A DNA stretch of 64,000 bases, from assembly GCF_000172155.1 (NCBI RefSeq), contig NZ_ABIZ01000001.1:4807105-4871104 (forward strand), written 5' to 3'. The stretch comes from Verrucomicrobium spinosum DSM 4136 = JCM 18804. Its GTDB lineage: Bacteria; Verrucomicrobiota; Verrucomicrobiia; Verrucomicrobiales; Verrucomicrobiaceae. The position numbers and the translations under genes were made by a program. This document shows, piece by piece, positions 31,768-34,740 of the stretch (within the stretch, counting starts at the first letter, position 1; each line of letters opens with the position of its first letter). Under the pieces are notes generated by a model. The model saw only the letters and a list, made by a program, of their open reading frames with translations. It had not been told where the DNA came from and searched no databases.

Positions 31768-34740
31768 TTACTTTTTCTTGGCAGCTTTCTTGGCAGGTGC
31801 AGCCTTCTTGGCGGCTTTCTTGGCGGCTTTCTTGGCCATAGGTTTGTTCCTCGTTACTGGGTTGCTGGTTGCTGTTTTTGTCTTGGCCGCGGCAACCTTG
31901 CCGGCGCGCGCCGTCACGGCGGGCTTGGCACTTGCTTTACCACGGACAGCTTTTTTCGGAGCAACTTTGGAGCCATCCTGCTGCGCTTCTTCCTCCAACG
32001 CTGCCTGGGCTGCAGCAAGGCGGGCAATGGCCACGCGGAACGGGCTGCAGCTCACATAATTCAAACCAATACGGTGACAGAACTTCACGCTGTCGGGATC
32101 GCCACCATGCTCGCCACAGATGCCGAGCTTGATGCCGGGGCGCGTTGCGTTGCCCTTCTCCACAGCGATCTTCATGAGTGCGCCCACACCCACCTGATCA
32201 AGGGTGGCAAACGGGTTCTTCTTGAAGACTTCGTTCTCTTGATACGGCGTAAGGAACGCACCCATGTCGTCACGGCTGATGCCGAGAGCGGTCTGGGTGA
32301 GGTCGTTCGTGCCGAAGCTGAAGAACTCAGCCGTTTCAGCGATCTCGTCCGCCGTGATTGCACCACGGGGAACTTCGATCATGGTGCCGACCTGATAGTC
32401 AATCTTCACCTTGCGCTCGGAAATCACTTCCTTGGCGACACGGTGCACGATTTCAACCTGCAAGTCGAGTTCCTTTTTGAAGCCCACGAGCGGGATCATC
32501 ACTTCCGGCTTCACCTTGACGCCAGCCTTGATCACGTCAGCAGCGGCCTCAAAGATGGCGCGGGCCTGCATCTCGGTGATCTCGGGATACGCGATGCCAA
32601 GACGGCAGCCGCGGTGACCCAGCATCGGGTTGAACTCGTGAAGCTGATGAATGCGCTGAACGATGAACTCGCGGCTCATGCCGGTCTTCTTCATCGTGTC
32701 CTTCATCTCGTTCTCCTGGTCTTCCTTGGGAAGGAACTCGTGGAGCGGCGGGTCAAGGAGGCGGATCGTCGCCGGCAGACCCTTGAGGGCCTTGAAGATG
32801 CCGGTGAAGTCTTCACGCTGATAAGGAAGCAGCTTCGCAAGAGCCTTCTTGCGGCCGGCTTCGTCGGTGGCCATGATCATCTCGCGAACGGCGTAGATGC
32901 GGTCCCCTTCGAAGAACATGTGCTCCGTACGGCAGAGGCCGATGCCCACTGCGCCGAACGCCAGGGCGTTGGCCACCTGGTCAGGGCTGTCTGCGTTGGT
33001 GCGGACCGTCAGGCGGGACACCTTGGAGCACCAGTTCATCAGCTTGCTGAAGTTCTGGTAGTTGCGGCCTGCAAGGGCGTCCTTGTTGCCGTCCACCAGC
33101 GCCTGGGTGATCTCGGAAGGAGCGGTCGGCAGGTTGCCTTCATACACGAAGCCGTTGGAACCGTCGATGGAGAGCGAGTCGCCTTCTTTGTAGGTCTTGC
33201 CACCCACGGTGAAGGTACGTGCTTCGTAATCGATGCTCATGCCCGGGGTCTTGTCAGACGCACCGCACACACACACCTTGCCCATCTGACGGGCGACGAG
33301 TGCCGCGTGGGAGGACACACCACCCTTGAGGGTGAGAATGCCTTCGGAGGCCAACATGCCGCGGATGTCTTCCGGGGAGGTCTCGTTACGCACGAGGAGG
33401 ACGCGCTCACCCTTGTCGCCAGCAGCAGCTGCGCGGTCAGAGTTGAAGTAGATCTTGCCGGAGGCGGCACCAGGACCAGCGTTGAGGCCGGAGGCGATGA
33501 CCTTGGCGGCTTTCACAGCCTTGGATTCAAAGATCGGAGCAAGCACCTGCTCAAGCTGGTCGGCGGGAACGCGCTTGATGGCGGTCTTCCAGTCGATGAG
33601 CTTCTCCTTCTCCATTTCCACTGCGAAGCGGACGGCGGCAACGCCGGTGCGCTTGCCGTTACGGGTCTGGAGCATGAACACCTTGCCCTCTTGGATCGTG
33701 AACTCGAAGTCCTGCACGTCTTTGAAGTGCGCTTCGAGCACGTGGCGGATGCGGTCGAGCTCCTTGTAGGGCTTCGGCATCACTGCCTGAAGATCAGCCA
33801 CGGGGCTCGGGGTACGCACGCCAGCGACGACGTCTTCGCCCTGGGCGTTGATGAGGAACTCACCGTAGAACACCTTCTCACCGGTGGCGGGGTCACGCGT
33901 GAACGCAACGCCGGAGCCGGAGTTGTCACCCGTGTTGCCGAACACCATCGCCTGCACGTTGACAGCGGTACCCCACTCGTGCGGGATGTTGTACTTGCGG
34001 CGATAAACGATCGCGCGGTCGTTGTTCCAGGAGCCGAACACTGCGCCGACGGCACCGTTAAGCTGGTCCCAGGGATTGGTCGGGAAGTCCTTGCCCGTGC
34101 GGTCTTTGACGAGCTTCTTGAAGAGAGCGACGAGCTCTTTGTAGTCGTCCACGGTCAGGTGGGCGTCGTCCACGTCATCTTCGTGGTTGTCGTGCTTGAG
34201 CTTGTGGATGACAGCCTCAAACGGATCTTCGTCTTCATCCGGACGCTTCTGCACGCCCATCACCACGTCGCCGTACATCTGGATGAAACGGCGGTAGCAG
34301 TCCCAGGCAAAACGCTCGTTGTTCGTGGCGCTGACGAGAGCCTGCACCGTCTGGTCGTTAAGACCAAGGTTGAGGATCGTGTCCATCATGCCTGGCATCG
34401 AGTCGCGGGCACCGGAGCGCACTGCAAGGAGCAGCGGCATCTTCTTGGTGTCGCCGAACTTGTAGCCCATGATCTTTTCCATGCCAGCCACGCCAGCTTC
34501 CATCTGCTTCTGCAGCGTGGCAGGATAAGTCTTCTTGTTGTCGTAGTAGTAGGTGCAGACCTCCGTCGAGATCGTGTACCCGGGAGGTACTGGAAGACCG
34601 ATGCGGCTCATTTCCGCGAGGTTGGCCCCTTTACCGCCCAGCAGCGCCTTCATAGAGCCGTTGCCGTCTGCTTTACCTGCTCCGAAGAAGTAAACGTATT
34701 TTGTTTTCTCCGCGCCGCCTTTGGTTGCTTTTTTTGCCAT
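31768..34740 (-). CDS. ppdK: Pyruvate, phosphate dikinase with a basic histone-H1-like C-terminal tail
   Basis: PPDK interconverts pyruvate + ATP + phosphate and phosphoenolpyruvate + AMP + pyrophosphate. The ATG at 34740 gives 990 residues. The ATP-grasp domain starts with F-G-A-G-K-A-D-G near residue 17, the swivelling phosphohistidine is H478 in G-G-V-S-S-H-A-A, and the PEP domain holds C875 in G-I-C-G-E-H-G-G-D. The family normally ends soon after R-L-A-A-A-Q-A, at about 870-915 residues; here about 75 more residues (about 916-990) are almost entirely Lys, Ala, Pro, Thr and Val, like histone H1 or AlgP tails. The tail is in frame and precedes a good terminator. It may bind nucleic acid or polyphosphate; this is inference. 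Confidence 0.95.

Follow-up and report, generated by a model that had tools for sequence, protein, structure and literature searches.

The pyruvate, phosphate dikinase (PPDK) gene of Verrucomicrobium spinosum DSM 4136 runs on in frame past the end of its enzyme part into a long stretch rich in lysine and alanine, within which a Shine–Dalgarno (SD)-like motif precedes a single ATG. Does the 3′ end of this gene encode a tail on the enzyme only, or also a small basic protein with a start of its own? Here we analyse a stretch of 64,000 nucleotides from this genome (hereafter referred to as the window) together with related loci, and propose, from the sequences compared, that a conserved internal translation start probably gives a free basic peptide besides the tailed PPDK. 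Internal in-frame starts and basic tails are each of a known kind; a polycation frame nested family-wide in a central enzyme gene would be new.

PPDK and its basic tail

The gene lies on the minus strand (34740..31768) as one open frame of 990 amino acids, in a genome of 8.22 Mb on one contig. Its product matches TIGR01828 at 1263.1 bits (curated cut-off, 843.45) over model positions 2–865 of 865, as well as PF01326, PF00391 and PF02896, and is the sole full-length PPDK match in the genome, three other matches being partial. The TIGR01828 match covers residues 14–915 and reaches the last position of the model, and alignments with 11 solved PPDK sequences stop at residue 913, 916 or 918; the enzyme part is accordingly given as residues 1–915 (31996..34740). 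A His motif and a CGEHGGDP motif, which we take to serve the mobile domain and the PEP domain, respectively, are present and align with the solved enzyme 9pzl. By the profile and motif tests the gene is a PPDK, and catalytic activity is predicted for its product.

Beyond the domain, 75 residues (916–990) follow in frame, from E916 (window base 31995) to the codon before the stop at 31770–31768. Both TIGR01828 and the solved enzymes thus confirm the original prediction of a normally ending PPDK domain followed by about 75 basic residues. Its description of the tail as consisting almost only of Lys, Ala, Pro, Thr and Val was slightly generous, as these account for 57 of the 75 residues (22 Ala, 20 Lys and five each of Val, Pro and Thr, the others being three each of Glu, Gly, Ser and Arg, two each of Gln and Asn, and one each of Asp and Met). 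Lys and Arg number 23 against four Asp and Glu and, judged by composition, the tail is probably disordered.

With E values up to 10, the Pfam histone H1-like families matched neither the tail stretch (window 31768–32001) nor a free H1-like gene of the same genome (described below). HC2 (PF07382) matched only the stretch of a free gene from another genome (L238), and below its cut-off (E 0.012; 16.2 bits against 40); assignment of the tail to HC2 or another Pfam histone H1-like family was rejected. Two NCBIfam models of housekeeping enzymes, PRK14900 (valine–tRNA ligase) and PRK13808 (adenylate kinase), weakly match the tail at their C-terminal positions (E 0.0031 and 0.043, respectively; far under the curated cut-offs), which is a resemblance in composition.

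Just 3′ of the stop codon lies an intrinsic terminator-like hairpin (31677..31713, minus strand), the one found in the region; shuffled sequences average 3.5, and alone it is not significant. A long run of simple repeats of the CCACTCCAT/CTCCACCC type (about 31250–31665), just downstream of the hairpin, gives rise to spurious ORFs on both strands. On the plus strand, an antisense ORF of 1004 codons (31732–34746) spans the length of the PPDK gene; long antisense frames occur in relatives too, and this one looks like a by-product of codon bias.

Distribution of the tail

Of 68 genomes of the family Verrucomicrobiaceae, 62 gave a match to PPDK with an E value of at most 1e-200. The C-terminal end was read at 58 loci, one per genome (L001 and L005–L061), the matches in the other four being incomplete. 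A long tail, with 37–53 residues between the domain and a MAKK motif, is present at 56 of the 58. The exceptions are L034, which is cut by a contig end before MAKK, and L060 (genome G015), which has a short tail without an inner Met. Three additional family loci (L236, L265 and L274) carry the long tail, and the tail on a Verrucomicrobiaceae bacterium contig (L120) is of the same type as that in the window. At L265 (G023) an assembly error or decay has broken the PPDK into three frames; its tail end has an open frame and belongs to the family type. The 37–53 linker codons are open in every one of the 56 long tails, and the fusion itself therefore seems to be kept.

The presence of the tail at 56 of 58 family loci rejects a frameshift, sequencing error, assembly joint or joined gene as its source. 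A script found no separate Lys-rich ORF after PPDK at 110 loci (at most about 1.5 kb each, ATG starts, the script's own cut-offs). An artificial joint and a separate downstream gene in relatives were the two outcomes that the original prediction had held would speak against the tail; both were looked for and neither appeared.

Outside the family, the MAKK part is present at none of 52 loci from other families of the order, picked among the matches listed (L062–L113); at least three Lys follow the domain in 37 of them (for example, EEKRAAKKK) and fewer in 15. In the named collection, from which the best 80 loci were kept and the end was located by script in 64, tails of at least ten residues with at least 30% Lys plus Arg were found at 18 of the 64 ends. 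A short K/A tail on PPDK is ordinary in the order, and the long, two-part, Met-led tail is, as far as read, that of one family. The search for Lys-rich PPDK C-termini in relatives that had been suggested at the outset was thus rewarded in the family and beyond it, and the accompanying statement that no such tail is known on PPDK proved too strong for the order. Among the literature matches listed, neither a Lys-rich PPDK tail nor a nested PPDK start was found.

One PPDK of another family (L062, in G071 of f5) has a long, Met-led, Lys-rich tail with GAGGAG 6 bases before the Met. It is a possible independent parallel, but a run of Glu codons alone yields GAGGAG; bar this locus, the putative nested start is restricted to one family among the loci read. 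Several other-family PPDKs (among L244–L254) have K/A-rich N termini.

Codon constraint around the inner ATG

As originally predicted, the inner ATG (31839–31837, minus strand) follows a GAGG (31852–31849), whose AGG is read as Arg, at a spacing of 9 bases and opens the last 23 codons of the gene (31768..31839). Each of the 56 long tails has this Met alone, at the beginning of its Lys-rich part; the peptide that the inner ATG would open, 23 amino acids in the window, has 19–79 in relatives.

We compared codons at sites with the same amino acid in both sequences of a pair, with the expected rate of identical codons taken from the PPDK body; pairs with more than 0.75 same codons were dropped, and locus L026 was retained with its masked tail codons skipped. 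From codon −13 to codon +9 relative to the inner ATG, 0.790 of codons are identical against 0.533 expected, an excess of 0.257 (38 sequences and 677 pairs, the sequences being related and the pairs not independent). These bounds were chosen after viewing the per-position result, with the best of the sliding body windows as a guard: none of 863 body windows of equal width reaches this excess, and the highest has 0.117. On either side, codons −40 to −14 (0.418 identical against 0.486 expected) and +10 to +24 (0.508 against 0.536) lie below expectation. A set of 15 sequences, one or two per genus (105 pairs), gives an excess of 0.199 against a body maximum of 0.100 (0 of 863 windows), with codons +10 to +24 slightly raised (0.524 against 0.488). 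Position by position, identity is 0.90–1.00 at −13 to −10, −8 to −6, −4 and +3, and about as expected, with little or no excess, at −5, +6 and +7.

The letters around the inner ATG are thus conserved beyond the need of the protein, over an A/C-rich leader of 13 codons (31840..31878) and, as a group, the first nine codons after the ATG. The first part of the linker (residues 916–954; 31879..31995) is variable and without synonymous constraint; a VR motif is kept there in 53 of 56 tails (VRG in 38, VRS in 13, VRV in one and VRE in one), which suggests a role at the protein level.

Codon usage also changes at the leader. Across the 56 loci, Arg is encoded by AGG in 43 of 44 cases within the 15 codons before the inner Met, compared with 4 of 363 among the final 175 or so codons of the body (Fisher p 3e-52, with kinship ignored), and GCA for Ala (0.79 against 0.14), CAA for Gln (0.79 against 0.19) and AAA for Lys (0.80 against 0.32) are likewise more frequent than at the body end. 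An SD-like motif (GAGG or AAGGA(G)) stands 7–9 bases before the ATG in 45 of the 56, the other 11 having no clear one; an SD-like 4-mer is found in 31 of 38 tail leaders against 7.8% of in-frame body Mets. The genome has four places matching a 16S 3′-end pattern with CACCTCC, a consensus that we take to carry the anti-SD.

Compared with 1069 in-frame body Mets of 38 genes, the leader is poor in G (fraction 0.105 against 0.293) and the region from −30 to +30 is weakly folded (−4.3 against −15.2 kcal/mol), with only two body Mets as extreme in upstream G and three in weak folding; as the low G content of the leader already follows from its amino acids, this comparison is not independent of the protein sequence, unlike the codon-usage and identical-codon tests, which are. 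The starts of PPDK itself, as chosen, fall between the two (G 0.146; −8.2 kcal/mol); about 5% of 38 have an SD-like 4-mer, and the usual signal here may therefore be something other than SD. A/C-rich leaders are found at these starts too, and at free H1-like genes. For SD-independent initiation, the excerpted text of one study describes a local absence of RNA structure as both necessary and sufficient (PMC3121790). At the inner ATG, the start codon, the leader and the candidate ribosome site appear to be conserved beyond what the protein needs, the SD-like motif in 45 of 56 loci only.

Could the same codons serve only the making of full-length PPDK, by slowing elongation before the Lys-rich stretch or by avoiding slippage on runs of A? 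The constrained stretch directly precedes the Lys-rich run, an internal SD-like site could affect elongation, and short K/A tails without an inner Met, with at least three Lys in 37 of 52, are common on PPDKs elsewhere. We nevertheless consider control of elongation unlikely, as it needs neither an ATG that is invariant (56 of 56) nor a motif spaced as before a start (45 of 56), and the constraint fades after about codon +9 though the Lys-rich run continues. Synonymous constraint alone leaves the function unnamed, and a DNA or RNA site for some other purpose, such as protein binding, an internal promoter or mRNA processing, would also produce it. Such a site is very improbable, given that the constraint is centred on the ATG and that composition and weak folding are as at start regions; a scan of window 31500–34950 for sigma-70-like promoters, with other promoter types outside its reach, found none, and an internal promoter in the tail region was rejected on this result.

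With an internal translation start, one gene would have two starts in one frame: the first would give PPDK with the 75-residue basic tail, and at the second, the inner ATG, ribosomes would begin on the same mRNA to give a free Lys/Ala peptide. We infer that ribosomes initiate there and that both products are useful. The interpretation first offered, in which the tail tethers or localizes the enzyme or is made separately as a small peptide, is partly supported, with the strongest new evidence (codons, leader and folding) falling to separate synthesis. The Lys-rich part would bind polyanions (DNA, RNA or polyphosphate), as is thought for the Lys/Pro/Ala repeats of AlgP, and by this analogy both the tail and the free peptide may do so. 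PPDK handles phosphate and pyrophosphate, which makes polyphosphate an attractive candidate ligand.

Known systems and the history of the tail

Similar arrangements are described in part of the literature. In CTP1L and related endolysins, according to the excerpted text of PMC4777826, an internal translation start gives a free C-terminal domain. There, as would hold for PPDK, one gene carries an SD-like site and a start between its enzyme and C-terminal parts, the fragment comes from the same mRNA, and the SD region is visible in a nucleotide alignment of relatives. CTP1L differs in that it is a lysin from a phage, its domain is folded and its start, established by experiment, is a GTG, whereas PPDK is a metabolic enzyme with a Lys/Ala peptide known from sequence. 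In Pseudomonas, AlgP (and PhaF) have C-terminal Lys/Ala/Pro repeats, histone H1-like and of the KPAA kind, which resemble the PPDK tail in composition; in the excerpts of PMC9239181, those of AlgP are predicted to be disordered, AlgP is associated with granules of polyphosphate, and DNA is bound in vitro by peptides containing repeats of this kind. Unlike PPDK, the rest of AlgP is a predicted helical domain, the excerpts mention no nested start, and the PPDK repeats are mostly KKAA.

Free H1-like genes occur in the order as well. The genome of the window has one of 53 amino acids (L200 1184–1345; C1:936683), found also in G001 and G002, and three genomes of another family (f2 g36) have L238, L239 and L240, with leaders rich in AACAACA-type runs. 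These Verrucomicrobiales proteins share with the PPDK tail a beginning MATKKA or MAAKKA followed by KKAA-type repeats, and an A/C-rich leader; unlike the tail, they are encoded by separate, un-nested genes. A protein search of 16 genomes with the 53-residue sequence gave two matches, itself and one PPDK tail, and missed a free gene in G143, so that it is no proof of absence.

Such genes, one of them in this very genome, would fit a relic, in which a free H1-like gene was fused to PPDK with its leader and the start is now irrelevant. An unused leader should have decayed, however, as the rest of the tail did, given that, in the PPDK body, only about half of the compared cells agree at synonymous sites. 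The leader of the free gene in this genome, the candidate source, resembles the tail leader no better than chance (2314 of 20,000 shuffled and 1937 of 20,000 Markov sequences were as good), and descent of the tail start from it was rejected; for the leaders of L238–L240 against one tail leader, scores are 30–35 and shuffled means 22.5–26.7. A relic seems distinctly improbable to us, and the internal start, still in use, remains the reading that we prefer.

The enzyme bodies have a history of their own. In a gene tree from which L251 was left out, the 38 long-tailed bodies fail to group as a single clade (p-AU 3.7e-07 when held together; p-AU 5.1e-04 for 37, with L007 left out), and the tail thus tracks the family more closely than the enzyme body does. 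Exchange of bodies, loss of tails and mosaic recombination would look alike on these data. The PPDK of G015, the short-tailed exception in the family, is 92–93% identical to that of G111 from another family, and adjoins the same divergent prepilin-like gene (assigned by eye; 43–48% identity) as in the window's genome, G064 and G016; in the stretches from G012 (of the same family), G003, G070 and G111, no such neighbour was seen. It is as if the enzyme gene had been swapped in place together with a short tail. In G003, a family-type tail is joined to a body whose closest counterpart is in an f4 genome, a weak case (5.7-kb contig; genome 76% complete). A plasmid search with the PPDK gene gave, in the five matches listed out of seven, only pieces of 8–14% of the gene.

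Taken further, the PPDK 3′ end could be a resident gene, nested in that of the enzyme, that encodes a small histone-like protein, has its own start, is selected apart from the enzyme and is bound to the family while the enzyme part swaps between families, so that the supply of polycation is tied to PPDK; we put this forward as a possible but tentative reading. If the internal start is real, a central enzyme gene hides a family-wide small protein, left unlisted by gene callers since its frame and stop are those of the enzyme. Such a start would also suggest how bacterial enzymes come by basic tails, and would bear on the handling of polyphosphate or nucleoid charge in these bacteria.

Basic extensions were seen on other proteins too. 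In the genome of the window, a 496-residue protein (L201 1483–2973) beside a short ORF in which a P-loop-like motif is visible by eye has a 24-residue end without an inner Met, and in G167 a primary sigma factor-like protein (L237, by eye) carries a Lys/Ala-rich N-terminal extension.
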